From assembly GCF_901827185.1 (NCBI RefSeq), contig NZ_LR594671.1:496001-560000 (forward strand): a stretch of DNA of 64,000 bases, written 5' to 3'. The position numbers and the translations under genes are program-made. Source of the DNA: Variovorax sp. PBL-E5 (GTDB lineage: Bacteria > Pseudomonadota > Gammaproteobacteria > Burkholderiales > Burkholderiaceae_C). Of the stretch, positions 9,864 to 24,108 are shown one piece after another. Under the pieces are notes generated by a model. That model did not search any database and was not told the DNA's origin. It saw nothing but the letters and a program-made list of their open reading frames with translations. Positions within the stretch are counted from its first letter, which is position 1, and each line of letters starts with the position of its first letter.

Positions 9864-11972
9864 ATGCCCGCCGCCGCCAAGCCTTCGACACCGGAAAAGC
9901 CCGCACCGGCGCCCGCGCCGGGCACGGGGCTGAGCCTGGTGCAGCGGGCGCTGCGCAAGCTGGGCCTGCTGCGCGATGTCGATTTCGCGCTCTACCTGCC
10001 GATGCGCTACGAGGACGAGACGCGCATCGTGCGGCTGACCGATACGCGCGACGGCGACATGGCGCAGGTCGAGGCGGTGGTCACCGAGAGCCAAGTGGTG
10101 TTCCGGCCGCGGCGCCAGCTGGTCGTCACCGTCGACGACGGCAGCGATACCTGCCAGCTGCGCTTCTTCAACTTCTATCCCTCGCAGCAGAAGCAGCTCG
10201 CGGTGGGCGCGCGGGTTCGCGTGCGCGGCGAAGTGCGCGGCGGTTTTCTCGGGCGGCAGATGATGCATCCGGCGGTCAAGGCCGCGGGCACCGAATTGCC
10301 GGAGGCGCTGACGCCGGTCTATTCGACGATCGCGGGGCTGGCCCAGCCGGTGCTGCGGCGCGAGGTGCGCTCGGGCCTGGCGCGCGCGGTGCTCGACGAG
10401 ACCCTGCCGGCCGGCACGGCGCCGCATGGCGCCTGGGATCTGCGCCGCGCGCTGTCCTTTCTGCATTACCCCGCGCCTGACGTTGCGCTCGCCACGCTGG
10501 AGGATCGCAGCCATCCGGCATGGCAGCGGCTGAAGGCCGACGAACTGCTGGCCCAGCAGCTGTCGCAATTGCAGGCGCGCCGCGCGCGTGCCGCGCAGCG
10601 CGCGCCGGTCCTCGATGCGGGGGCGTCCGGAGCCTCCTTGCACGCCGAGTTGCTGGGCGTGCTGCCCTTCGCGCTGACCGGTGCCCAGCGCCGTGTCGGC
10701 GAGGAGATCACGCGCGACCTCGCGCGCGAGGTTCCGATGCACCGTCTGCTGCAAGGCGACGTCGGCTCCGGCAAGACCGTGGTCGCCGCGCTGGCGGCCG
10801 CGCGCTGCATCGATGCGGGCTACCAGTGCGCCTTGATGGCGCCGACCGAGATCCTCGCGGCCCAGCATTTCGGCAAGCTGGTCGGCTGGCTCGATCCGCT
10901 GCTGGCCGAGCGCGGGCTGCGCGTCGCCTGGCTCACCGGCAGCCAGAAGAAGAAGGAACGCGATGCGATGTCGGCCGCGGTCGAGAGCGGCGAAGCGGCG
11001 CTGGTGATCGGTACGCATGCCGTGATCTCGGAGAAGGTGCGCTTCCAACGGCTCGCGCTCGCGATCATCGACGAACAGCATCGCTTCGGCGTCGCGCAGC
11101 GCCTCGCGTTGCGCGGCAAGGCCGTGGGCGAGCTGGAGCCGCATCTGCTGATGATGAGCGCCACGCCGATTCCGCGCACGCTGGCGATGAGCTATTACGC
11201 CGACCTCGATGTCTCGACGCTCGACGAGCTGCCGCCGGGCCGTACGCCGATCGTCACCAAGCTGGTGGCCGAACACCGGCGCGACGAGGTCGTCGACCGT
11301 ATCCGGGCGCAGCTCGCGCAGGGGCGCCAGGTCTACTGGGTCTGCCCGCTGATCGAGGAGAGCGAGGCGGTCGACCTGCGCAACGCGACCGAGACCCGCG
11401 ACGAGCTGGCCGCCGCGCTCGGCCCGCGCGTCGGCGTCGGCTTGCTGCATTCGCGCATGCCGACGGCCGAGAAGCAGGCGGTGATGGAGAGCTTCACGGC
11501 CAACCGGCTGCAGGTGCTGGTCAGCACGACGGTGATCGAGGTCGGCGTCGATGTGCCGAACGCTTCGCTGATGGTGATCGAGCATGCCGAGCGCTTCGGG
11601 CTTTCGCAGCTGCACCAGCTGCGCGGCCGGGTCGGGCGCGGCGCGGCGGCATCGGCCTGCGTGCTGCTCTATGCGCCGAACGAGGGCGGCCGTGTCGGCG
11701 AGGCGGCGCGCGCGCGGCTGAAGGCGATGGTGGAGACCGGCGACGGCTTCGAGATCGCACGGCGCGACCTCGAGATCCGCGGGCCCGGCGAGTTCCTCGG
11801 CGCGCGGCAGTCCGGCGCGCCGCTGCTGCGCTTCGCCGACCTGGCCACCGATGTCATGCTGCTCGACTGGGCGCGCGAACTGGCGCCGCGGATGCTCGAC
11901 GGTCATCCGGAACTCGCACAGCGGCATGTCGACCGTTGGCTCGGAAGCAAGGCGGAGTACCTCAAGGCCTAA
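9864..11972 (+). CDS. recG: ATP-dependent DNA helicase RecG
   Basis: 702 residues. RecG drives branch migration and reversal of stalled replication forks. An N-terminal wedge/OB region (about 15-190) is followed by SF2 helicase motifs: Walker [13 protein letters not shown] (about 293-304), the DEQH box in [33 protein letters not shown] and QLRGRVGRG. The C-terminal region [23 protein letters not shown] is typical. Full length and intact. In related genomes recG is commonly close to oxyR; here an 11-kb catabolic region follows instead. Confidence 0.97.
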
Positions 11973-11986
11973 TCAGTCTTGCGGTC

Positions 11987-12000
11987 GCTGGCATAGCAGC
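11987..12000 (+). promoter_or_regulatory. CTGC-ATA-GCAG-type inverted repeat upstream of CMD gene
   Basis: GCTGGCATAGCAGC, a near-palindrome with one extra G, 97 bases before the CMD-family start. Nearly the same site occurs at 15472-15484 (GCTGCATAGCAGC) and 20873-20883 (CTGCTATGCAG). Probably a binding site of a shared regulator such as the LysR at 22048. Confidence 0.45.
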
Positions 12001-12097
12001 GTTGCGCCGGGCAGGCACGCGCAGCATGGCTTCCTCGCTAAGCTTGCCTGCGTCGCCCCCGCGTTGAAGGCGGCGACGAATCGGAGACACCACATCG

Positions 12098-12670
12098 ATG
12101 CCACGCATTTCCCTGCCCGCCCCTGAGTTCATGAGCCCCGAACAGCGCGCCGTCCACGACAAGATCGTGGCCGGCCCCCGCGGCAGGATCCAAGGGCCCC
12201 TGCGGGCGGCCCTGCACAACCCCGAACTCGCCGACAAGTGGCAGGCGCTGGGCGCGCTGCTGCGCTACGGCACCACGCTGCCGCCGCGGCTGTCCGAGAT
12301 CGCGATCCTCACGACGGGGCGAGCCTGCAACTCCCCTTTCGAGTGGTATGCGCATCGCGCCGAGGCTGAAAAGGCCGGCGTCCCGCAAGCCGTCATCGAG
12401 GCGCTCCTTGCCGAGCGCGAACCCCCCGGGCTTTCGCCCGAAGAGGCGGCGGTCTATCGCTACGCGGTCGAACTCAATCGCGACAACTCCGTTTCCGACC
12501 CGACCTACGCCACGGCGCTGGCGCTGTTCGGCGAGCGTGCCGTGGTCGAGCTCACGGCATTGATCGGTTACTACACGATGGTCGCGATGACGCTCAACTG
12601 CCACGAGATACCGCTGCCCGAGGGCGTCGTGCCGGCCTTTGCGCTGCCGCAGCACGCGGACGCGAAGTGA
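12098..12670 (+). CDS. Carboxymuconolactone decarboxylase (CMD) family protein
   Basis: 190 residues, all-helical. It has the CMD/AhpD-like core around residues 60-100 with the block SPFEWYAHRAEAEKAGV, where the Glu and His correspond to the conserved pair of the family. The CXXC pair of AhpD-type peroxidases is absent (only one Cys, in GRACNSP), so a decarboxylase or lyase-type role on a ring-cleavage lactone is more likely than peroxide reduction. Its stop overlaps the GTG start of the amidohydrolase (GTGA), so the two are co-translated. Confidence 0.75.
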   Translation: MPRISLPAPEFMSPEQRAVHDKIVAGPRGRIQGPLRAALHNPELADKWQALGALLRYGTTLPPRLSEIAILTTGRACNSPFEWYAHRAEAEKAGVPQAVIEALLAEREPPGLSPEEAAVYRYAVELNRDNSVSDPTYATALALFGERAVVELTALIGYYTMVAMTLNCHEIPLPEGVVPAFALPQHADAK

Positions 12671-13488
12671 GCGCCGCCGCTGCCGTCGAGCGCTGGGATT
12701 GCCATGCCCACCTCTTCGGCCCCTACGATCGCTTTCCGCTCGCACCCGAGCGCAGCTATACGCCGCCCGAGGCCACCGAATCCGCGTACCGCGCGCTCCT
12801 CGCGCGGCTTGGGTTCACGCACGGTGTCCTGGTCCATCCCAGCGCTTATGGCGACGACCATTCGTTGCTGCTGCACGCCCTGTCGGCACAGCGCACGCTG
12901 CGTGGCGTCGTCGTCGTGCGCCCCGGCAGTCCGCTGGCCCTCGCCGGCCTGCACGCGCGGGGCGTGCGCGGCGCGCGCTTCAGCCACCGCAGCGGGGCCG
13001 GCGCCAACTTCGCAGGCAGTGCGTCCTTCGACGATCTGCGGGCGCTGGCGCCCGCGCTGGCAGACGCCGGCCTGCACGCCGAACTGTGGACCGACTGCCA
13101 GGCGTTGCCAGACATCGCCAACGCGCTGAAGCAATTGCCCGTCCCGGTCGTCATCGACCACATGGGCGGCTTCGACGTGAATGCCGGTGTCGACGATCCC
13201 GGCTTTCGCACGCTGCTCGACCTGCTCGCATCGGGCAAGGTGTGGATCAAGCTCTGCGCCTACCGCAACCTGCTGAACGCGACCGATGGGCAGCGGGGCC
13301 GGCCGTTCCAGCAGAAGATGATCGAGATCCACCCCGAGCGCCTGGTCTGGGGCAGCGATTGGCCGCATCTGCGCGTAGCGCCGACGCCCGACGCCGCACA
13401 GCTCCTGGCCATGTTCGAGGACTGGGCCGGCGACGAAGCCCTCGTGCGTCAGGTGCTCAGCGTCAACCCGGGGATCCTGTACGGATGA
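12667..13488 (+). CDS. TIM-barrel amidohydrolase (LigI/pyrone-dicarboxylate lactonase-like)
   Basis: 273 residues starting at a GTG that overlaps the CMD stop. Metal/active-site blocks of the amidohydrolase superfamily are seen: CHAHLFGP (HxH, about 12-19), HPSAYGDDHS (about 57-66), VIDHMGG (about 162-168) and WGSDWPHLRV (catalytic Asp, about 231-240). The last block and overall size match the 2-pyrone-4,6-dicarboxylate lactonase/predicted metal-dependent hydrolase group. Together with the CMD protein it suggests opening and further processing of a lactone or cyclic intermediate; the true substrate is unknown. Confidence 0.8.
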   Translation: MSAAAAVERWDCHAHLFGPYDRFPLAPERSYTPPEATESAYRALLARLGFTHGVLVHPSAYGDDHSLLLHALSAQRTLRGVVVVRPGSPLALAGLHARGVRGARFSHRSGAGANFAGSASFDDLRALAPALADAGLHAELWTDCQALPDIANALKQLPVPVVIDHMGGFDVNAGVDDPGFRTLLDLLASGKVWIKLCAYRNLLNATDGQRGRPFQQKMIEIHPERLVWGSDWPHLRVAPTPDAAQLLAMFEDWAGDEALVRQVLSVNPGILYG

Positions 13489-13508
13489 TCCTGCGTGCCC
13501 TGGCCGGC

Positions 13509-14126
13509 TCAGCCCTCGATGGGCTCCGTGGCCGCGAAGGAAGGCCGGGCACGCAGCGTCTCGAACCAGGTTGAAAGGGCCGGCGCGATGGCGCGCCAGC
13601 CGAGCGCGTCGAACCGGTAGTCGAGGTAGCCGAGCGCGCAGCCGAGCGTCACATGGCCGATCGAGAACGGTGCGGCGCGCAGGGCTTGCGCCTCGGCATC
13701 AAGCATCTCGAGCGAGGCGCGCGTCTTGAGATCGAAGGCCTCCAGCAGGACTTGCAGCGGCGCTTCGCGCTCGCGCTCGTTGCGCCAGAGGATCAGCGCG
13801 TCCAGGAGGCCGTCGCCGAAGGCATGCCAGCGCAACGCATGCCAGCGATCCTCGCCCTGCGAGGGGAACAGCACGCCGCCGGCGCGCTCGTTCAGGTACT
13901 CGCAGATCACGACCGAATCGAACAGGACCGAGCCGTCTTCGCGCACCAGCGTCGGGATCTTCGACAGCGGGTTGTGCGCCATGATGGCCGTGTTCGGCTT
14001 GCGCATCGCGGCGACCGAGCGCACGAGCTCGAGTTCGTCCGAGATGCCGAGTTCATGCGCGCAGATCATGACCTTGCGCACATAGGGCGACTTGGGCGAC
14101 CAGTGCAATTTCATCCTGGCTGTCAT
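13509..14126 (-). CDS. Glutathione S-transferase family protein
   Basis: 205 residues. An N-terminal thioredoxin-like half (residues about 5-80: SPKSPYVRKV, NPLSKIPTLV, SVVICEYL) is followed by an all-helical C-terminal half. The SPYVRK block places it among Ser/Cys-type bacterial GSTs. The start at 14126 overlaps the stop of the CoA-transferase (ATGA), so it is translationally coupled to it; MKLHWSP four codons later is the alternative start. Role in the cluster could be glutathione-dependent isomerisation or removal of a reactive CoA or ring-cleavage intermediate (inference). Confidence 0.85.
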   Translation of the reverse strand: MTARMKLHWSPKSPYVRKVMICAHELGISDELELVRSVAAMRKPNTAIMAHNPLSKIPTLVREDGSVLFDSVVICEYLNERAGGVLFPSQGEDRWHALRWHAFGDGLLDALILWRNEREREAPLQVLLEAFDLKTRASLEMLDAEAQALRAAPFSIGHVTLGCALGYLDYRFDALGWRAIAPALSTWFETLRARPSFAATEPIEG

Positions 14127-15355
14127 CAGATCGCCCCGGCGGTGCGCAAGGCGTCGATGCGGGCCGTGCTGTAGCCCAGCTCGGCGAGGATCTCGTCGCT
14201 GTGCTGCCCCAGCAGTGGCGGCGCCGTTTGCGTCTGCAGCGGCGCTTCGGCGAAGCGCATGGGGCTGGCCACTTGCGGCACGTCCACGCCAGTGGGATGC
14301 GGCACGTGGCGCAGCATGCCGCGCGCCTCGACCTGCGGGTCCTTGAACACGTCGGCCACGGTGTTGATGGGGCCGCAAGGGATGCCCGCCTTGTCGAGCG
14401 CGTCGATCAGCTTGTCCCGTTCCCATTCGGCGAACACCTCCCGCAGCCCGGCCGAGAGCTCGCCGATGTTGCGCACCCGCTGTCCATTGGTGGCAAAGCG
14501 TTCATCGGCGATCCAATCCTGCCGGCCGAAGACCTCGCACAGCTTGGCGAACTGGCGGTCATTGCCGACCACCAGGATGACGTCGCCGTCCGCGCAACGG
14601 TAGACGTCCTGCGGCTGGATGTTGGGATGGGCATTGCCGTTGCGACGCGGCACGTTGCCCGAGACGAGGTAGTTCATGGCCTGATTGGACAGCGTGGCCA
14701 CTTGCACGTCGAGCATCGCGATGTCGATGTTGTCGCCGACCCCAGTCTCGTTGCGCCGCGCCAGTGCGGCCAGTACCGAGACTGCGGCGTACATGCCCGT
14801 CATCAAGTCGACGATCGGGATGCCCACCTTTTGCGGGCCGCCGCCCGGGCGACCGTCCTTCTCGCCGGTCACGCTCATCAGGCCGCCCATGGCCTGGATC
14901 AGGAAATCGTAGGCCGGCTGGTCGCGGCGGGGTCCGGTCTGGCCGAATCCGGTCACCGAGCAATAGATGAGCCCCGGGTTGATCTTGCGCAGCGAAGCCT
15001 CGTCGAGGCCATAGCGCTTCAGGGTGCCGGCCTTGTAGTTCTCCAACACGATGTCGGCCTTGGCCGCCAATGCCTTGACGATCTCCTGGCCTTCCGGCTT
15101 TTCGAGGCTCACGGTGATCGAGCGCTTGCCGCGGTTGACCGCCAGGTAGTAGCCGGCTTCCTTCGTGTCCCTGCCTTCAGCGTCCTTCAGGAACGGAGGA
15201 CCCCAGGTGCGCGTGTCGTCGCCGGCGCCGGGTCGTTCGACCTTGGTCACCTGCGCACCGAGGTCGGCGAGGATCTGGCTGGCCCATGGGGCCGCGAGGA
15301 TGCGGCTCAGGTCGAGCACCTTGACGTGCGACAGCGGGCCCTTGGCGGTGGTCAT
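14126..15355 (-). CDS. CaiB/BaiF family (class III) CoA-transferase
   Basis: 409 residues. It shows the class III CoA-transferase pattern: VLDLSRILAAPWASQILADLGA at the N-terminus, VNRGKRSI, the block GIPIVDLMTGMYAA carrying the expected catalytic Asp (about residue 175), and GNDRQFAKLC later. It would move CoA between an acyl-CoA donor and a carboxylic acid, thereby activating the substrate of the cluster. It is upstream of and coupled to the GST gene, and divergent from the Bug gene at 15559 across a 203-base regulatory region. Confidence 0.92.
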   Translation of the reverse strand: MTTAKGPLSHVKVLDLSRILAAPWASQILADLGAQVTKVERPGAGDDTRTWGPPFLKDAEGRDTKEAGYYLAVNRGKRSITVSLEKPEGQEIVKALAAKADIVLENYKAGTLKRYGLDEASLRKINPGLIYCSVTGFGQTGPRRDQPAYDFLIQAMGGLMSVTGEKDGRPGGGPQKVGIPIVDLMTGMYAAVSVLAALARRNETGVGDNIDIAMLDVQVATLSNQAMNYLVSGNVPRRNGNAHPNIQPQDVYRCADGDVILVVGNDRQFAKLCEVFGRQDWIADERFATNGQRVRNIGELSAGLREVFAEWERDKLIDALDKAGIPCGPINTVADVFKDPQVEARGMLRHVPHPTGVDVPQVASPMRFAEAPLQTQTAPPLLGQHSDEILAELGYSTARIDALRTAGAI

Positions 15356-15418
15356 GCAAAGCTTCCTTGGTTGGAGGCGATTCTGGAATTGCGATGTTTT
15401 TTGGACTAGCGGCCCAGC

Positions 15419-15484
15419 GGCAACGCTGTGATGCGCCGCGACGCATATCGCCGATCCGCGAAGTGCCCGGCGCTGCATAGCAGC
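15419..15484 (+). promoter_or_regulatory. Two-part operator region between CoA-transferase and Bug genes
   Basis: Module 1 is ATGCG-N6-CGCAT at 15431-15446, preceded by GGCAACGCTGTG. Module 2 is GCTGC-ATA-GCAGC at 15472-15484. The same pair, in the same order relative to the Bug gene, occurs on the minus strand at 20960-20873; the 17 bases 15419-15435 match the reverse complement of 20944-20960 at 16 positions. This is probably a shared LysR-type operator set. Confidence 0.55.
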
Positions 15485-15558
15485 TATGTGCATGAGGCCG
15501 GTGCCACGTGATGCGGAGCTTCTTAAAGTCCGTTCACCACGAACCGGAGACATCGACG

Positions 15559-16530
15559 ATGAATCAATTTTTCAGATCTGCCGCCGCGGCACTCGCTCTC
15601 GCGTTGGCCGCAAGCGCGGGATGGGCGCAGGCCTATCCGACCAAGGCGATCCGCCTGGTCGTGCCTTTTCCTGCGGGCGGCCCGGTGGACCAGACGGCGC
15701 GCGAGCTCGGCGCCAGGTTGAGCAGCTCGCTCGGCCAGTCCGTCATCGTCGACAACCGGGGAGGGGCCGGCGGCCTGCTCGGCGCCGACGTGGTGGCCAA
15801 GGCGCCGCCCGACGGCTACGTGCTGCTGCTTTCCTCTGCGGGTGCGTTGGCCATCGTGCCGCACATCGTGCCCTCGATGCCCTACGACCCGAAGAAGGAC
15901 CTGGCGGCGGTGACGCAGGCGCTCAAGGTGCCTGCGGTGCTCGTGGTATCCGCCAATTCGGCGTTCAAGACCTTTGCCGACCTGAAGGCCGCCGCCACCG
16001 GCGATGCGAGCAAGATCAACTACGCCTCCGCGGGCAGCGGGACGACGCCGCACCTCCAGGCCGAGTTGCTCAAGCGTGAAGCCAAGCTCAACATCACCCA
16101 CATTCCGTACCGAGGCGCCGCGCCTGCGCTGACCGATCTCATGGGCGGCCAGGTCGACATGATGATGGTGGACATTCCCGTCGCGTTGCCGCTCATCCAG
16201 TCGGGCAAGTTGCGGGCGCTGGCGGTGACCAACGGCAAGCGGATTCCGGTGTTGAAGGATGTGCCCACGGTGAGTGAACTCGGATTGCCGAAGGCGGAGG
16301 CCTACAACTGGTACGGCGTGCTCGCCCCGGCTCGCACGCCGCCCGAGATCATCGGCAAGCTCTACAGCGCTGTCGGCGCCGCCTTGCACTCGCCCGAGCT
16401 GATGAAGCAGTTCGAGCAACAGGGCGTGGAGGTCGTCGGCAGCAAGCCCGAGGAATTCGCCGCCTTCATCGCCGCGGAGTCGCAGCGCTGGGGCGTGCTG
16501 GCGAAGGCGGTGGGCGCCAGGATGGAATGA
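15559..16530 (+). CDS. Bug/TctC family tripartite tricarboxylate substrate-binding protein
   Basis: 323 residues with a signal peptide (to about residue 24, GWAQA). The Bug family pattern is complete: [63 protein letters not shown] and HIPYRGAAPALTDLMGGQVD. Bug proteins are periplasmic binders of carboxylic acids; no TctA/TctB membrane partners are in the window, so it may act as an orphan binder or sensor. A GGAGA at 15545-15549 supports the ATG at 15559. It is divergent from the CoA-transferase and probably binds the acid degraded by this cluster. Confidence 0.93.
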   Translation: MNQFFRSAAAALALALAASAGWAQAYPTKAIRLVVPFPAGGPVDQTARELGARLSSSLGQSVIVDNRGGAGGLLGADVVAKAPPDGYVLLLSSAGALAIVPHIVPSMPYDPKKDLAAVTQALKVPAVLVVSANSAFKTFADLKAAATGDASKINYASAGSGTTPHLQAELLKREAKLNITHIPYRGAAPALTDLMGGQVDMMMVDIPVALPLIQSGKLRALAVTNGKRIPVLKDVPTVSELGLPKAEAYNWYGVLAPARTPPEIIGKLYSAVGAALHSPELMKQFEQQGVEVVGSKPEEFAAFIAAESQRWGVLAKAVGARME

Positions 16531-16580
16531 GCGCCTGCCGACGAGGCGGCCGCGCCGATGTCCCGCGCGGCCTTCCTTGT

Positions 16581-17807
16581 CTATGCGGCCGAGGGTCGTT
16601 TGGCCAGCTCGATCTTCGCGATGGCGTTGCGGTGCACTTCGTCGGGCCCGTCGACGATGCGCACGGTGCGCTGGTGCGCATACGCCTCGGCAAGCCAGAA
16701 ATCCTGGCTCACGCCAGCCGCGCCGTGGGCCTGGATCGCCCAGTCGACCACCTTGCAGGACATGTTGGGCGCGACCACCTTGATCATCGCGATTTCGGCG
16801 CGCGCATTCTTGTTGCCGATCGTGTCCATCTTGTAGGCTGCGTTCAGCGTGAGAAGGCGCGCCTGGTCGATCAGGCAGCGTGACTCGGCGATGCGCTCGT
16901 GCCAGACCGATTGTTCCGCCAGCGGCTTGCCGAAGGCGACGCGTTCCCGCAGGCGGTCGCACATCATCTCGAGCGCGCGTTCGGCAGCGCCGATGGAACG
17001 CATGCAGTGATGGATGCGCCCCGGCCCGAGGCGGCCCTGGGCGATTTCGAAGCCCCTGCCCTCACCCAGCAGGATGTTGCCGACCGGCACGCGCACGTTC
17101 TCCAGCAGGACTTCCATGTGGCCGTGCGGCGCGTCGTCGTACCCGAACACCGACAGGTGGCGCAGCACGCTGACGCCGGGCGTGTCGCGCGGCACCAGCA
17201 CCATCGACTGCTGCGCGTGGCGCGGCGCATCGGGGTCGGTCTTGCCCATCACGATGAAGATCTTGCAGCGCGGGCTGCCGGCGCCGGAGGAGAACCACTT
17301 GCGGCCGTTGATGACGTATTCGTCGCCGTCGCGCGTGATGGTGCACTGGATATTGGTGGCGTCCGACGAGGCGACGGCCGGCTCGGTCATGAGGAAGCCG
17401 GAGCGGATCTCGCCGGCCAGCAGCGGCTCGAGCCATTCGTCCTTGTGCGCCTCGGTGCCGTAGCGCTCGATGGTCTCCATGTTGCCGGTGTCGGGTGCCG
17501 AGCAGTTGAAGACCTCGCCGGACCACGATACGCGGCCCATGATCTCGCACAGCGGCGCGTAGTCGAGATTGGAAATGCCGGGCACGCCGCGGTGCTCGTG
17601 CGGCAGGAACATGTTCCAGAGGCCGGCGGCGCGGGCCAGCGGCTTGAGTTCCTCGATCAGCGGCGAGACCTGCCAGGCATTGCCCTGGCGACGGAAGGCG
17701 TCCATCTCCTGGTGGTAGCGCATCTCGTTCGGATAGATGTGCTGTTCGAAGAACTGCTGCAGGCGCTGCAGCAGGTCGCGTGTCTTGGGGGATGGTTCGG
17801 CAAGCAT
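16581..17807 (-). CDS. Acyl-CoA dehydrogenase (ACAD10/11-like)
   Basis: 408 residues. It has an N-terminal helical domain, [18 protein letters not shown] (FAD/substrate loop, about 140-157), the WFSSGAG block and a C-terminal helical domain ending in [18 protein letters not shown]. The DGPDEVH signature is characteristic of the ACAD10/11 branch, which often handles branched or hydroxylated acyl-CoAs. It would introduce a 2,3 double bond for the crotonase encoded just upstream on the same strand. 130 bases separate it from the crotonase stop, so it may have a promoter of its own. Confidence 0.93.
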
Positions 17808-17937
17808 GGCTGTCCTTGTGTCTTGATGGCTGCGCCCGATCCTGGCGCAGGCCGTTCGAGATTAGAACGCTGCCGACGGAGAGAAGCCGTCGCGCGTGTG
17901 ACGAGGCAGCGCCCCGATCAGCCGGCCGAGTCCCCGA

Positions 17938-18744
17938 TCAGCGGCCGACGAAGACCGGCGGCCGCTTCTCGCGAAAGGCGAGCTGGGCCTCTTTCGCGTC
18001 TTCGGTGCGACCGATGGCGGCCGTCATGTCCTGTTCATAGCGATAGCCGTCGCGCAAGCTCATGTCTTCGATCACATTGAGCGTGTGCTTGCCCATGCGG
18101 GTGGAGACCGGGCTCTTGGACGCGATGGTCGCGGCCAGTGCCATCGCGGCGGGCATGAGCTCTTCAGCGGTCGTGCAAGCCTCGACGATGCCCAGGCGGT
18201 ACAGTTCCGCGCCGGAGACGCGGTAGCCCGTCAGCATCATTCGACGCACGCGCGAATGGCCGAACAAGCGCATCGCGTGGCGGCAGCCGCCGAGCAGGCC
18301 GACGTCGACTTCCGGCAGGCCGAGCGACCCTTTCTCCGCGGCCAGCAGGATGTCGCTGGAGGCGACCATCGCCAGGCCCGACCCCAGCGCGGGGCCGTTG
18401 ATGGCCGCGATCACCGGTTTGGCGCATTCGCGGATGGCGTGGAAGCATTCCCGCGTGCGGCGCGAATGGGCCAGCAGATCCCCGGGCTCTTTGACGACCT
18501 CGGCGCGCCCCTTGAGATCGGCGCCTGCGCAGAACACCTTGCCCGCACCGGTCAGGACGACCACGCGGATGTCGTCCAACTCCGAGATGCGGTCGAGCAC
18601 AGAGGTCAGCTCGTCATTGAGCCGGCGCGTCAGCGCGTTGACCGGGGGGCTGTTCAGCGTCAGGACTGCGATGTGGGTGTCGACGACTTCCACCCCGAGC
18701 TCGGTCAGGCCTTGGAAGAGTTGCGCTGGATTTTGTGGTTGCAT
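17938..18744 (-). CDS. Enoyl-CoA hydratase/isomerase (crotonase) family protein
   Basis: 268 residues. The oxyanion-hole blocks are present: GAGKVFCAGADLKG (about 65-78) and INGPALGSGLAMVASSD (about 113-129). The second catalytic Glu is kept in LGLPEVDVGLLGG, but the first Glu of classical hydratases (GGCEL position) is replaced, as in many isomerase- or lyase-type members. It fits a beta-oxidation-like step following the acyl-CoA dehydrogenase gene. Confidence 0.9.
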   Translation of the reverse strand: MQPQNPAQLFQGLTELGVEVVDTHIAVLTLNSPPVNALTRRLNDELTSVLDRISELDDIRVVVLTGAGKVFCAGADLKGRAEVVKEPGDLLAHSRRTRECFHAIRECAKPVIAAINGPALGSGLAMVASSDILLAAEKGSLGLPEVDVGLLGGCRHAMRLFGHSRVRRMMLTGYRVSGAELYRLGIVEACTTAEELMPAAMALAATIASKSPVSTRMGKHTLNVIEDMSLRDGYRYEQDMTAAIGRTEDAKEAQLAFREKRPPVFVGR

Positions 18745-18898
18745 CGTGCTTGCTCGCGGAGGATCGGGGTGGGTGGTGGCTTGTCGCTGTCGACGAGTCT
18801 AGGCAAGGCCCGGGTCGGCCGCCAGTCGGGTCGGCGCAGGACAGCTATTTCCCGGTGCGCATGGCCGCGGGCGCCGGAGGATGCGCTCGCATGTCGGC

Positions 18899-19723
18899 TC
18901 AGGGCGCCAGGGCGTGCGCCCATTCGGCAATCGCCGCCGCCGCCCTCTCGGGCTGCTCGACGGGCAGCGCGTGGCTTGCATCGGGCACGAGGCGGACTTC
19001 GACCCGGTCGCGTCCGAGCGCTTGCCGGAGCTCTTCCCGACTCTCCGGCGGCCTCCAGGGATCCTGCGCGCCTTGCAGATCGAGAAGCGGTGCATGGGTG
19101 ACGGGCCACCACGCTGCCTTGGGTGGCGTGCTGCCTGCCGCCCGGTAGATCTCGCGCAATGCGGGGTACCAACCCGACAGCCAGGGGGAGGGATCGTTGC
19201 CCGGCGCGAAGAAGGCGTGTTGCAACTGCCGCAGCCGCAATGCATCGGGCTGGGCCGGATCGGAAGCGATCACCAGGGCCTCGGCCATGCCGGCGGGAAA
19301 GGTCCGCGCTGCCGCAGCGGCCAGCACCACGCCGCGTACCTTGTCCGGGTACAAGAGGTCGGCCACGCGCGCGACGAAGTGACCGAAGGCGTGACCCATG
19401 ATCACCGCGCGCCCGTCCCCGAAGGTGTCGATGGTGTGCACCACGTCTTGTGCCAGTGCGGCCAGGTCGAGCCCACCCATCGGCCCGTGGCTGCGCGCCA
19501 TGCCGCGGGGCTGGGGTCGCAGGACCTGGAAGCCGGCGCAGGCCAGGCCTCGTGCCAAGGGATCGAAGTCGAGCGAGTCGCGCAACGACGAGGGCAACAG
19601 GACGATGGCGGGTCGCGGACCGGGAGCGGCCGTATCGATCACCACGTCGATCGTCGCGCAACCGGTGTCGAGCAACTTGCGCCGGCGCTCGTGCACGGCG
19701 CAGGCGGCCGGGGCCGCGGCCAT
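18899..19723 (-). CDS. Alpha/beta-hydrolase fold protein lacking the nucleophile Ser
   Basis: 274 residues. The fold is clear: VLLPSSLRDS (oxyanion region), the nucleophile elbow, acid LQGAQDPW and His in DASHALP. The elbow reads GHAFG (Gly110-Gly114), so the expected catalytic serine is Ala112. It is either catalytically inactive by the usual mechanism or uses another chemistry, for example like cofactor-free hydrolase-fold proteins. The start at 19723 is two bases after the stop of the Bug gene at 19726, so the two are co-transcribed. Confidence 0.8.
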   Translation of the reverse strand: MAAAPAACAVHERRRKLLDTGCATIDVVIDTAAPGPRPAIVLLPSSLRDSLDFDPLARGLACAGFQVLRPQPRGMARSHGPMGGLDLAALAQDVVHTIDTFGDGRAVIMGHAFGHFVARVADLLYPDKVRGVVLAAAAARTFPAGMAEALVIASDPAQPDALRLRQLQHAFFAPGNDPSPWLSGWYPALREIYRAAGSTPPKAAWWPVTHAPLLDLQGAQDPWRPPESREELRQALGRDRVEVRLVPDASHALPVEQPERAAAAIAEWAHALAP

Positions 19724-19725
19724 GC

Positions 19726-20760
19726 TCACTCCACGCTGGCGCCGGAGCGCTTGACGATCTCGGCCCACTTGGGAATGTCGGTGCGCAGCAGCGCGGCCAA
19801 GGCCTCGGGCGAGCTGGACTCGGGCTCGATGCCGAGTGCCGTCAGCTGACGGCGCAGCGCCGGGTCGGCCATCGTGTGGACCAGCGCGGCGTTCAGCCGC
19901 GCGATGATCGCCGGCGCCGTCTTGCCCGGAGCGAACACGCCGAGCCAGTTGGAAACGTCGTAGCCTGCCAGTCCGGACTCCGACAGCGTCGGCACGTCGG
20001 GCAGGGCGCCCATGCGCTTGATCGACGTCACGGCCAGTGCACGTACGCGCCCGGTCTGGATGTGCGGCGCATACACCGTGTAGGAGTCGAAGGCCATGTC
20101 GATCCGGCCGCCCAGCAGATCCGTCAGCAAGGGGGCACTTCCCTTGTACGGCACGTGCAGGAGACGAACTCCCGCCATGCTTTCGAACAAGGCGCCCGAA
20201 AGATGGCCGGAGCTTCCGCTGCCGGCAGAGCCGTAGGTCAGGCTGCCCGGCTTCTTTTTCGCCAACGCGATGAGTTCGGCGACGTTGGTGACCGGCAGCC
20301 TGGCATCGACGACCAGAACGCGAGGCGTGAGATGCGTCAGGCCCACGGGGGCGAAGTCCCGGACCGGGTCGTACGGCAGTTGCCGATAGAGCGCGGGGTT
20401 GATGGCCTGCGTTCCCATGGTGCCGAACAGCAGCGTGTAGCCGTCGGCGGGGGCCTTGGCGACGGCATCGGCAGCGCTGATGCCCCCGGCGCCGCCGCGG
20501 TTGTCCACGATGACCTGCTGCCCCAGGTCGGCCTGCAGTCCCTTTGCCAGGCCACGGGCCATGATGTCGGCGGCGCCGCCGGCGGTGAACGGCACGATCA
20601 GGCGCAGCGGCTTCTGGGGAAATTCGGCGTGCGCGTGCGAGACGCCGGTGACGGCGGCAACGAGCATCAGCGCGTGCAGGATCAAGGACGCATGGCCCCC
20701 AACGCGTTCTCGAAACGAGCGTACGAGCCCAGAGAAGTGAAAAGGGCGTGTCTCTGGCAT
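19726..20760 (-). CDS. Bug/TctC family substrate-binding protein
   Basis: 344 residues. An unusually long basic N-terminus precedes the signal peptide (about residues 24-45, ending HAHAE). The family pattern follows: PLRLIVPFTAGGAADIMARG, IVDNRGGAGG, DAVAKAPADGYTLLFGT, YGSAGSGSSGHLSGALFE, HVPYKGSAPLLTDLLGGRID. A periplasmic carboxylate binder is expected. Co-transcribed with the Ser-less alpha/beta-hydrolase downstream; its promoter region carries the same two operator modules as the Bug gene at 15559. Confidence 0.92.
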   Translation of the reverse strand: MPETRPFHFSGLVRSFRERVGGHASLILHALMLVAAVTGVSHAHAEFPQKPLRLIVPFTAGGAADIMARGLAKGLQADLGQQVIVDNRGGAGGISAADAVAKAPADGYTLLFGTMGTQAINPALYRQLPYDPVRDFAPVGLTHLTPRVLVVDARLPVTNVAELIALAKKKPGSLTYGSAGSGSSGHLSGALFESMAGVRLLHVPYKGSAPLLTDLLGGRIDMAFDSYTVYAPHIQTGRVRALAVTSIKRMGALPDVPTLSESGLAGYDVSNWLGVFAPGKTAPAIIARLNAALVHTMADPALRRQLTALGIEPESSSPEALAALLRTDIPKWAEIVKRSGASVE

Positions 20761-20872
20761 GGCAACTCCGTGGGCTCTCTGTGGACGGCAGGCGGCGGCC
20801 CGCCGCGTCTGTTCCGGACAGCGGGAGTGTAGGTAGGCGCGCGCATCCGGGCCATGCCTGCCGCAGGCAAGC

Positions 20873-20960
20873 CTGCTATGCAGATGCGGTATGTCTGCGG
20901 CCTGGCGCGCTGTTCAGCACGGCGCCCGAGCTATGCGTCCAGCCGCATCACAGCATTGCC
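20873..20960 (-). promoter_or_regulatory. Two-part operator region upstream of second Bug gene
   Basis: Read on the minus strand: module 1, ATGCG-N6-CGCAT (20933-20948 with a 12-base conserved flank to 20960), then module 2, CTGC-ATA-GCAG (20873-20883). The two module centres are about 62 bases apart, versus about 40 in the 15.4-kb copy, a difference of about two helical turns. It lies between divergent genes and could serve both. Confidence 0.5.
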
Positions 20961-21034
20961 CCTGGCTGCGTAGGCACGCGCAGGCAACGTGCCTAGAGTT
21001 CCGGGGCCCCGTTACTGCAGGAATGAAGACAACC

Positions 21035-21979
21035 ATGCGAAATCAGATGAAAACCACAACCAGTCTCTCGCGGCGCCTGTTCGGCGTCGCGGTCATCTGC
21101 ATGGGCATGCTCGGCGCCGGCCTGGCACGGGCTGCCGACGAATTCAAGGCGTCCTGGGTCACGGCCAGCGATGGCGTCCGTCTGTCGGTGCGCGAGTACG
21201 GCAATCTCCAGGGACCCGCCATCGTGTTCGTGCACGGCATCGCGCAAAGCCAACTTTCGTTCGACCGCCAGGTTCACAGCGAGCTGGCAAAGAAATACCA
21301 CCTGGTCACCTACGATCTTCGAGGCCACGGCGAATCCGACAAGCCGACGAGCGAAGAGGCCTATGTCAATGGCCGTCGCATGTCCGACGACCTGCGAAGC
21401 GTGATGACAGCGACCGGCGTCCACAAGCCGGTGCTCGTGGGTTGGTCGCTCGGCGGAATCATCGTTGCCCAATACCTGAGCGACTACGGCGATGCCGAGA
21501 TCAGCGGGGTCAACTTCGTCGGTGCGCGCATCGCGCAGCCGCCGGGCACACCGGCACGCATGCCCGGCGCCGCTTACATCCGGACCATGCTTTCGCCGAA
21601 GCTCGAGGAAAACATCCGCGCGACGGCCAGCTTCGTTCGTGCCTGCGTCGCCACACCGCTGTCGCCGGCGGATTTCGAACTCATGCTCGGCTACAACATG
21701 GCCAGTCCGGTGTTCGCGCGTGCCGCGACGCTCAAGTGGAGCGGCGGCACGGACTTTGCCGCTGCGCTGCCTCGCACCAAGGTACCGGTGCTGATCTCGC
21801 ATGGCCGGCTGGATCAGGTCATCTCGCCCGACGTGGCGCAGGAAGCGGGGCGGATTCTTCCGGCCGCCAAGGTCTCCTGGTACGACCATGGCGGGCATTC
21901 GCTGTTCTTCGACGACGCGCCGCGCTTCAATGCCGAGCTGGCCGCGTTCGTGGATGCCGCGACCGCGATGACGCACTGA
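21035..21979 (+). CDS. Exported alpha/beta-hydrolase
   Basis: 314 residues with an N-terminal signal peptide (SRRLFGVAVICMGMLGAGLA, ending ARAAD). The catalytic triad is visible: Ser in GWSLGG (about 140), Asp in HGRLDQVIS (about 256) and His in DHGGHSLFF (about 285); HGIAQSQLSFD is the oxyanion loop. Likely a periplasmic esterase or lactonase; substrate unknown. Start uncertain: ATG at 21023 is too close to AGGA (21019-21022), so 21035 is preferred, and 21047 is possible. It is divergent from the second Bug gene and shares its regulatory region. Confidence 0.85.
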   Translation: MRNQMKTTTSLSRRLFGVAVICMGMLGAGLARAADEFKASWVTASDGVRLSVREYGNLQGPAIVFVHGIAQSQLSFDRQVHSELAKKYHLVTYDLRGHGESDKPTSEEAYVNGRRMSDDLRSVMTATGVHKPVLVGWSLGGIIVAQYLSDYGDAEISGVNFVGARIAQPPGTPARMPGAAYIRTMLSPKLEENIRATASFVRACVATPLSPADFELMLGYNMASPVFARAATLKWSGGTDFAAALPRTKVPVLISHGRLDQVISPDVAQEAGRILPAAKVSWYDHGGHSLFFDDAPRFNAELAAFVDAATAMTH

Positions 21980-22047: not shown

Positions 22048-23040
22048 CTACGCGGCCGAGGCGTCAGAGGGGCTCGCCGGCTCCGTCGAATGCCACATGC
22101 CGCTGCGGCCCATGTCGTCCACGATGTCCACGATGGCTGCAGCCACGGACTGCACGGCCTTGCGCGGGCCCTTGGTCTTGGACATGGCCATCGAGATGCT
22201 GCGCTGCAACGGCGGATCGATGATTCTCGCGGCCTGGAGGCGCCCCTCTTCCACTTCCGTCCAGACCGCATGCAGCGGCAGCACCGTATAGACGCGCTCC
22301 TGGGCCACCAGCGACTTGAAGAGCGGCAGCGAGTCGGCTTCGATCACCGTGGAAACCGTGACCCTCTCTTGCCGGGCGGTCGCGTCGAGTGCGTTGCGCA
22401 ATCCGTTGGGCGAACTCGGCAGGATGAAGGGCAGGCCGTGCATCGCGCGGAAGCTGATGTCCGGCGCTTGGGTGACCTTGTCGCCTCGCGCGCCGATCAG
22501 GTAGCTGTCGACGGTGGCGAGCAATTGTTCGTGCTCGGGTCGTGATGCGCCGTAGCGGTAGAGGATCGCGAGGTCGACCCGTGCGTCGGTCAGCCACTCT
22601 TCCACCTGGCCGCTGGAGCCTTCGAGCACCTTGAGGCTGATGCCGGAATGACGGGCGCGCAATTGCGAAAACAAGCGCCCGATCAGCGGATGCGCAATCG
22701 ACGGCAGGAGGCCGACGGTCACTCGACCGGATGGCTCCTGCGCGTTGCTGCGGATCTGTGCTTCCAGCTGTTGGGCGTCTTCCAGCAAGGTGCGCACCGG
22801 GCCGAGGATCTGCGCGCCCGTCTCGGTCAGTTCCACACCCCGACCCGTCCGGGTGAACAAGCGACAGCCGCATTGCCGCTCCAGCGCATTGATCTGCCGG
22901 CTCAGAAGGGATTGGTTGCTGTCCAGGAACAGCGCTGCGCGCGTCAGGCTGCCGAGTTCGGCGATCGCGAGGAACGCACGCCAGATCGTCAGATCGCCGG
23001 CGAAATCCAACTGGATGTCGGTGGCCTTGCCGGATTGCAT
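22048..23040 (-). CDS. LysR-family transcriptional regulator
   Basis: 330 residues. A winged HTH (about 18-75: AELGSLTRAALFLDSNQSLL, SRQINALERQCGCRLF) is followed by a LysR effector domain (about 105-310). It is the only regulator in the 12-23 kb catabolic region and is the best candidate to bind the modules at 11987, 15419 and 20873 in response to a pathway metabolite (inference). It lies divergently next to oxyR with 102 bases between the starts. Confidence 0.93.
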   Translation of the reverse strand: MQSGKATDIQLDFAGDLTIWRAFLAIAELGSLTRAALFLDSNQSLLSRQINALERQCGCRLFTRTGRGVELTETGAQILGPVRTLLEDAQQLEAQIRSNAQEPSGRVTVGLLPSIAHPLIGRLFSQLRARHSGISLKVLEGSSGQVEEWLTDARVDLAILYRYGASRPEHEQLLATVDSYLIGARGDKVTQAPDISFRAMHGLPFILPSSPNGLRNALDATARQERVTVSTVIEADSLPLFKSLVAQERVYTVLPLHAVWTEVEEGRLQAARIIDPPLQRSISMAMSKTKGPRKAVQSVAAAIVDIVDDMGRSGMWHSTEPASPSDASAA

Positions 23041-23142: not shown

Positions 23143-24108
23143 ATGACCCTCACCGAACTCAAATACATCGTCGCGGTCGCACGCGAACGGCATTTCGGCA
23201 AGGCGGCCGAAGCCTGCTATGTATCGCAACCCACGCTGTCGGTCGCCATCAAGAAACTGGAAGACGAGCTCGAGGTGAAGCTGTTCGAGCGCAGCGCGGG
23301 TGAGGTCACGGTGACCCCGCTCGGCGAGCAGATCGTGCAGCAGGCGCAGAGCGTGCTCGACCAGGCGGCCAGCATCAAGGAGATCGCCAAGCGCGGCAAG
23401 GATCCGTTGTCGGGTCCGCTCAACCTTGGCGTGATCTACACCATCGGCCCCTACCTGCTGCCGGACCTGGTGCGTCAGAACATCGCGCGCACGCCGCAGA
23501 TGCCGCTCGTGCTGCAGGAGAACTTCACCGTCAAGCTGCTGGAGATGCTGCGCGCCGGCGAGATCGATTGCGCGATCATGGCCGAGCCTTTTCCCGATGC
23601 CGGCCTGGCGACCGCCGCGCTTTACGACGAACCTTTCATGGCCGCGCTGCCGGCGCACCATCCGCTGGCGCAGCGCGAGTCGGTGAGTTCCGAGGAGCTC
23701 AAGAAGGAAACCATGCTGCTGCTCGGCACCGGCCACTGCTTTCGCGACCATGTGCTCGAGGTGTGTCCTGAGTTCGCGCGCTTCTCGAGCAACGCCGAGG
23801 GCATCCGCAAAAGCTTCGAGGGCTCGTCGCTCGAGACCATCAAGCACATGGTGGCCTCGGGCATGGGCGTGACCTTGGTGCCGCGCCTTTCGGTGCCGGC
23901 GAATGCGCTCAAGCCCAGAGCCAAGGGCCGCAAGGAGCCGGAGCAGATCGTGCGCTATCTGCCGGTGCGCGATGCGCATGGCGGCGAACCGCCGACGCGG
24001 CGCGTCGCGCTGGCCTGGCGCCGCAGCTTCACGCGCTATGAAGCGATCGCGGCCTTGCGCAATGCCATCTACGCCTGCGAATTGCCGGGCGTCACGCGCC
24101 TCTCGTAG
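23143..24108 (+). CDS. oxyR: Hydrogen peroxide-sensing regulator OxyR
   Basis: 321 residues. LysR-type HTH at the N-terminus (MTLTELKYIVAVARERHFGKAAEACYVSQPTLS pattern). The two redox cysteines of OxyR are present at Cys199 and Cys208 in GHCFRDHVLEVC, with the same eight-residue spacing as in E. coli. SLETIKHMVASGMGVTLVP also matches OxyR. The ATG at 23143 gives the standard N-terminus. On oxidation it should activate peroxide defence genes; dps is directly downstream with a plausible OxyR site in its promoter. Confidence 0.93.
   Translation: MTLTELKYIVAVARERHFGKAAEACYVSQPTLSVAIKKLEDELEVKLFERSAGEVTVTPLGEQIVQQAQSVLDQAASIKEIAKRGKDPLSGPLNLGVIYTIGPYLLPDLVRQNIARTPQMPLVLQENFTVKLLEMLRAGEIDCAIMAEPFPDAGLATAALYDEPFMAALPAHHPLAQRESVSSEELKKETMLLLGTGHCFRDHVLEVCPEFARFSSNAEGIRKSFEGSSLETIKHMVASGMGVTLVPRLSVPANALKPRAKGRKEPEQIVRYLPVRDAHGGEPPTRRVALAWRRSFTRYEAIAALRNAIYACELPGVTRLS

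Follow-up and report, generated by a model that had tools for sequence, protein, structure and literature searches.

A 15-bp interrupted dyad at five predicted promoters of a Variovorax catabolic cluster, a probable operator of the LysR-type regulator encoded there

The closest described counterparts found for the system treated here are promoters governed by LysR-type transcriptional regulators (LTTRs). The element in question is a 15-bp dyad that recurs in a catabolic gene cluster of Variovorax sp. PBL-E5 (assembly GCF_901827185.1, contig NZ_LR594671.1, positions 496,001 to 560,000). This stretch of 64,000 nucleotides within the 7.09-Mb genome is termed the window, and window positions are counted from its first letter. 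In PMC4834489, ThnR is a regulator of the LysR type that has several targets and activates two divergent thn promoters, PB and PC. Each divergent catabolic promoter carries its own palindromic site, the two centres lie 55 bp apart, cooperation needs helical phasing, and ThnR acts with a second protein, ThnY. The same source describes the canonical LTTR arrangement: one site lies near -65 and has T-N11-A, and a secondary site extends to the -35.

The Variovorax cluster resembles the ThnR system in having a candidate LTTR with several target promoters and in its paired divergent sites, which are spaced by 51-55 bp in nine of ten pairs between the genes for a CaiB-type CoA-transferase (caiB) and a solute-binding protein (Bug1), the window included, and by 40 bp in the tenth. 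It differs in having five promoters, another operator sequence, a pair spaced by 78 bp (between Bug2 and an exported hydrolase) and no known partner of the ThnY kind. Likenesses to the canonical LTTR are a protein with HTH_1 and LysR_substrate domains, a 15-bp interrupted dyad upstream of the promoter with half-sites about one helical turn apart, and, at caiB and the exported hydrolase gene, an additional upstream half-site giving a dyad predicted near -65.5. Unlike the canonical case, the dyad has C-N11-G instead of T-N11-A, the main dyad is predicted near -54, and lysR in the window is not divergent from the targets and lacks a clear operator copy. Literature on the motif strings, the cluster, LTTR sites and Bug/LysR regulons contained, among the matches listed, no description of this operator or regulon; those listed for the motif strings were judged unrelated. 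Operator and regulon are of a known kind, and the assignment to the LysR protein is likely.

The element, GCATARCAGNNTTGC, is a near-palindrome of the form GCATAGC-N-GCTATGC with five copies in the cluster. On the proper strand the copies read GCATNNCAGNNWTGC, with one mismatch at 15475-15489. The five predicted operator copies are as follows.

11991..12005, + strand: copy 1, GCATAGCAGCGTTGC, for the CMD-amidohydrolase operon, centre 11998, about -53 (matrix, exact match, relatives)
15420..15434, - strand: copy 2, GCATCACAGCGTTGC, for caiB-GST, with an ATGCG-N6-CGCAT extension to 15446 that forms an overlapping dyad near -65.5 (alignment, matrix)
15475..15489, + strand: copy 3, GCATAGCAGCTATGT, one mismatch, for Bug1, divergent from copy 2 at 55 bp (nine-genome alignment, matrix)
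20867..20881, - strand: copy 4, GCATAGCAGGCTTGC, for the Bug2 operon (exact match, matrix)
20945..20959, + strand: copy 5, GCATCACAGCATTGC, for the exported hydrolase, with the extension down to 20933, divergent from copy 4 at 78 bp (exact match, matrix)

An earlier note on this DNA had reported two different recurring modules, ATGCG-N6-CGCAT and CTGC-ATA-GCAG. Both repeats were found where it had placed them, GGCAAYGCTGTGATGCG exactly at 15419-15435(+) and 20944-20960(-), and CTGCATAGCAG exactly at 15473-15483(+) and 20873-20883(-). Both contain the strict form GCAANNCTGNNATGC (equivalent to GCATNNCAGNNTTGC), which occurs as a near form at 15475. The centre assigned to CTGC-ATA-GCAG was off by four bases: comparison of the window with eight congeners places the conserved dyad at 15475-15489 and shows no conservation of the left CTGC. 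What had been listed as a variant at 11987-12000 turned out to be a full copy, at 11991-12005, whose counterpart stands upstream of CMD or abh1-CMD in relatives. The two pairs are spaced by 55 and 78 bp from centre to centre, a difference of 23 bp (about 2.2 turns). A fixed two-turn rule does not hold, the spacings in relatives being 34-35, 40 and 51-55 bp. Since Bug2-type pairs are spaced by 34-35 bp elsewhere and by 78 bp in the window, a fixed helical phase is not general here.

Rarity depended on the form searched for. GCAANNCTGNNATGC occurs exactly four times in the window, always in the cluster, and eight times in the genome; four of eight within 9 kb corresponds to a Poisson P of about 3e-11, the pattern having been selected post hoc. 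The wider GCAW form of the strict site has 12 places in the genome, and 7 of the 8 outside the cluster lie inside open frames of at least 120 codons, which is a loose test in GC-rich DNA. GCAAYGCTGTGATGCG is found free of mismatches only at the two cluster places (next best, two mismatches), and CTGCATAGCAG exactly three times in the genome, twice in the cluster. Counts within the window were not above those in shuffled sequence for CTGCATAGCAG at up to one mismatch (3 places; 13 of 100 shuffles reach 3) or for the 17-mer at up to three mismatches (3 places; 20 of 100 shuffles reach 3). The genome-wide motif search proposed earlier thus upheld the exact forms as rare and showed the bare ATGCG-N6-CGCAT core to be unspecific; with 42 places in the genome, the latter was dropped as a definition of the element. 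The looser form GCATNNCAGNNWTGC was also rejected as a discriminator, being too common (1-16 per genome, both strands summed, in 61 congeneric genomes).

All five copies point their TTGC end toward the gene served, and a -10-like hexamer follows 33-35 bp on. Hexamers were scored with sigma-70 frequencies as weights, and site centres were computed with the -10 hexamer set at -12 to -7. The predicted -10 elements are listed below.

12039..12044, + strand: TAAGCT, CMD promoter, offset 33 (register; TAAGCT is in register also in L043, L044, L046, L047 and L143)
15380..15385, - strand: CAGAAT, caiB promoter, offset 34 (register; invariant in the nine-genome alignment)
15524..15529, + strand: TAAAGT, Bug1 promoter, offset 34 (register, alignment)
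20826..20831, - strand: TACACT, Bug2 promoter, offset 35 (register)
20994..20999, + strand: TAGAGT, exported-hydrolase promoter, offset 34 (register)

On these predicted hexamers, dyad centres fall at -53 to -55 of the inferred starts, and the overlapping ATGCG-N6-CGCAT dyads of caiB and the exported hydrolase at about -65.5. This suggests one promoter per site, with the site centred near -54. The register was retained in exact sites of the window and its relatives: the best -10 within a 110-bp stretch stood at offset 33-36 in 48 of 56 non-identical sites. After removal of sites at least 60% alike downstream, it stood at offset 33-35 in 24 of 28, where 0.8 would be expected. In the one-mismatch set, which includes chance matches, 25 of 55 sites had it at 33-36. 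Within the genome of the strain itself, an in-register -10 scoring at least 5 accompanied 4/4 exact cluster sites versus 1/8 elsewhere, the latter inside an open reading frame.

Conservation was assessed in stretches with a LysR ortholog, namely 12 loci in named genomes and further congeners. L053 was left out as a duplicate of L024 (same contig), and identical 70-bp stretches were merged for the register and matrix work. A 15-column matrix was built, with the window excluded, from 74 exact or one-mismatch sites of relatives, each with an in-register -10. This matrix alone gives its five highest scores in the window (19.7-24.9 bits) to the sites at 11991, 20867, 15475, 15420 and 20945, in this order; the opposite strands of two operator sites come next (14.7 and 14.0 bits), and the best other place scores 12.0. 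With a -10 term the five sites reach 25.3-30.1 versus 11.6 for the best other place; because the matrix sites had been picked for an in-register -10, this combined score is not independent of it. When the region between caiB and Bug1 was aligned across nine genomes, 31 of the 43 columns inside the operators were invariant versus 44 of 154 others (Fisher P 3e-7), and further conserved blocks include the -10-like CAGAAT and TAAAGT. The dyad corresponding to 15475-15489 is often a perfect GCATAGCAGCTATGC in relatives. Exact GCAANNCTGNNATGC was present in 11 of the 12 named LysR loci, and the twelfth (L018) has a one-mismatch form. Every caiB ortholog in 61 congeners, the own genome included, has an in-register upstream site (13/13; 10 exact, 2 with one and 1 with two mismatches), and caiB of L101-L103 has a single site without a pair.

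The candidate reader of the element is the LysR protein encoded at 22048-23040, with hits to HTH_1 (67.4 bits) and LysR_substrate (115.8 bits), both over the cut-off; it was the sole regulator recognised when 11 cluster genes were scanned with Pfam. Co-occurrence was examined in 101 congeneric genomes, with LysR orthologs defined by E <= 1e-100 and sites by the strict pattern GCATAGCAGNNTTGC, which was chosen after the relatives' sites and misses caiB-type and one-mismatch sites. LysR was found in 21 genomes and the strict site in 16; both were present in 15, LysR only in 6, the site only in 1 and neither in 79 (P 2.7e-12). The six LysR-only genomes carry an in-register near-match beside lysR; it departs from the strict form by two mismatches in G062 and by one in the other five. 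In a draw of 61 genomes, 13 had both CaiB and LysR (at least 59% identity) and 48 had neither, 2 of the 48 with a LysR relative of 38-43%. The helix-turn-helix is kept at 44-60 of 65 residues in 9 of the 12 named orthologs that were compared, and at 34-38 in the 38-43% relatives; the stretch with the 43% relative (L055) contains an exact site, and none was found in that with the 38% relative (L056). Two LysR-bearing genomes have sites on other contigs, each with an in-register -10, before a Bug2-like gene in G094 (L152, 1501-1515) and before CaiB-like genes in the fragmented assembly of G091 (L151, 1501-1515). Taken together, the element is probably the operator of LysR 22048-23040 acting as an activator, where binding, activation, inducer, operons, transcription starts and any interaction between sites are inferred.

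Several observations weigh against this assignment. The co-occurrence of site and LysR is partly linkage, both lying in one cluster, and no CaiB cluster without LysR was found in the 61 genomes; as the same 13 genomes hold LysR and CaiB, linkage and function are not separable by co-occurrence. The site counts of relatives are not independent, since the sites are related by descent, and the search patterns were drawn up with the window's own sites in view, which favours these sites. None of the top-ranked places lies upstream of lysR itself; the OxyR-like gene contains a weak look-alike at 23208-23222(-), with a score of 5.7 bits. T-N11-A is not found at the symmetric dyad positions, positions 2 and 14 being C and G, and the centre at -53 to -55, on predicted -10 hexamers, is nearer than the usual -65. 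A strict sigma-70 consensus scan gave no promoter-like pair in the region. Where the secondary activation site of an LTTR would be expected, near -35, the weighted profile has no more than a weak W-W-G (positions 27-29), and this could likewise be the beginning of a -35 element with a 17-bp spacer to the -10; both this and the missing consensus promoter fit promoters that need an activator. Finally, a perfect dyad GCATAGCAGCTATGC (L121, 1501-1515, congener G011) stands beside a different LysR gene of 29% identity, so other LTTRs may read similar sequence.

Linkage, the neighbouring LTTR of L121 and the absence of T-N11-A would all suit a true operator that belongs to a regulator encoded elsewhere in the genome, either another LTTR or a member of another family. 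A genus-wide regulator of this kind would leave strict sites in genomes without LysR; just 1 of 80 such genomes has one, in a 2,163-bp locus with no cluster gene and no in-register -10. The next LysR relatives in the own genome are at most 34% identical, and sites are also present in the upstream region of lysR in species with other genes around it (L019, L021, L022, L055). A regulator other than LysR 22048-23040 is therefore judged unlikely.

If LysR 22048-23040 is the activator, it would bind the five dyads, one per promoter, each about 54 bp upstream of the inferred start with the TTGC end toward the promoter and at most a weak -35 between site and -10. An inducer, presumably a substrate or intermediate of the pathway, would bind the LTTR, which would then contact RNA polymerase, and the CMD-amidohydrolase, CaiB-GST, Bug1, Bug2-abh1-ECH-ACAD (ECH, enoyl-CoA hydratase; ACAD, acyl-CoA dehydrogenase) and exported-hydrolase units would be switched on together. 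Each of the two divergent intergenic regions holds a pair of operators arranged back to back, and by analogy with ThnR the regulators on paired sites may interact. The same protein could instead bind mainly as a repressor or anti-repressor; some LTTRs activate several promoters and repress others, according to PMC4834489. This is improbable here, as the fixed place upstream of the core promoter and the lack of a consensus promoter fit activation, and the site overlaps neither the predicted -10 nor the start.

The division into two modules for two regulators, as in the earlier note, can draw on the caiB and exported-hydrolase sites, which share the form GCATCACAG and an upstream ATGCG half-site, set against GCATAGCAG at the CMD and Bug sites. 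A single 15-bp pattern nevertheless covers both forms, their orientation rule and register do not differ, and they intergrade in other species (GCATATCAG, GCATAACAG, GCATCTCAG), which makes two separate modules very unlikely. The element is real, several signs point to a function, and it was correctly read as marking a regulon; the split into two modules was wrong, the two being variants of one operator. That CMD/amidohydrolase, CaiB/GST, both Bug genes and the exported hydrolase form one regulon is strongly supported by matrix ranking, phylogenetic footprinting, the fixed -10 register and the co-occurrence with LysR orthologs. A non-functional remnant of a divergent promoter that was duplicated, or a mobile repeat without function, would account for the 44% identity of the paralogs Bug1 and Bug2 and for the alignment of the two intergenic regions, which is far above chance (score 65.5, not attained in 500 single-base shuffles or by any of 1354 other window pieces). 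It is scarcely credible, given that operator columns are more conserved between genomes than the remainder of the region, that orientation and register are constant in otherwise dissimilar promoters, and that exact sites outside the cluster are few.

A wider reading is offered tentatively and may well be wrong. LysR 22048-23040 could represent an LTTR subfamily so far undescribed, whose operator is rigid, lacks T-N11-A and sits at about -54 in all targets. Its regulon would grow by placing a copy of the operator at that register before recruited genes, such as the exported hydrolase, and before unlinked targets (Bug2-like in G094, CaiB-like in G091), and back-to-back operators would couple divergent promoters.

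With these assignments the catabolic cluster becomes a defined regulon: a candidate regulator can be named, five operators are placed exactly, and five promoters are predicted. As the strict operator is rare, it can be used to find further target genes, and these could help to show on which substrate the CMD/CaiB/Bug pathway of Variovorax and related genera acts. The promoters collected from several species also provide material on DNA recognition by LTTRs without T-N11-A.

The cluster lies between recG (9864-11972) and an OxyR-like LysR-family gene, which is followed by a ferritin-family gene. It encodes a CMD-family protein, an amidohydrolase, a GST, a CaiB-type CoA-transferase, Bug1, an acyl-CoA dehydrogenase, an enoyl-CoA hydratase, an alpha/beta hydrolase, Bug2, an exported hydrolase and LysR, arranged as follows.

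12098..13488, + strand: CMD-family protein (12098-12670) and amidohydrolase_2 (12667-13488) (Pfam)
13509..15355, - strand: GST (13509-14123) and CaiB/BaiF class III CoA-transferase (14126-15355) (Pfam, NCBIfam)
15559..16530, + strand: Bug1, TctC-family solute-binding protein (Pfam)
16581..20760, - strand: Bug2 (19726-20760), abh1, alpha/beta hydrolase (18899-19768), enoyl-CoA hydratase (17938-18744) and acyl-CoA dehydrogenase (16581-17807) (Pfam)
21035..21979, + strand: abhX, exported alpha/beta hydrolase (Pfam)
22048..23040, - strand: LysR-type regulator, HTH_1 and LysR_substrate (Pfam)

From gene order and strand, we infer that Bug2, abh1, the hydratase and the dehydrogenase form a single operon. 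CaiB, the amidohydrolase and both hydrolases all scored below curated NCBIfam cut-offs. The top NCBIfam likeness of the amidohydrolase (12667-13488) was to 4-sulfomuconolactone hydrolase (161.5 bits, cut-off 500), and abh1 showed a weak resemblance to PcaD. These likenesses suggest a lactone step in the pathway of the cluster. A search of 26 relative stretches, two of which are the same contig, gave no homolog of abhX at E <= 1e-10, yet the gene has a caiB-type operator in register; it has the look of a recent addition to the regulon.

The position of lysR varies. Of the 17 relative stretches that contain both, 13 have lysR directly upstream of CMD or abh1-CMD. In the window lysR is the last gene of the cluster, next to the OxyR-like gene, and the CMD operon has retained its site, which favours LysR itself as the regulator, as do the sites on other contigs in G094 and G091. 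Plasmid pVarWS11_2 of Variovorax sp. WS11 (L027) carries a related cluster that has several sites, so the cluster can be plasmid-borne.

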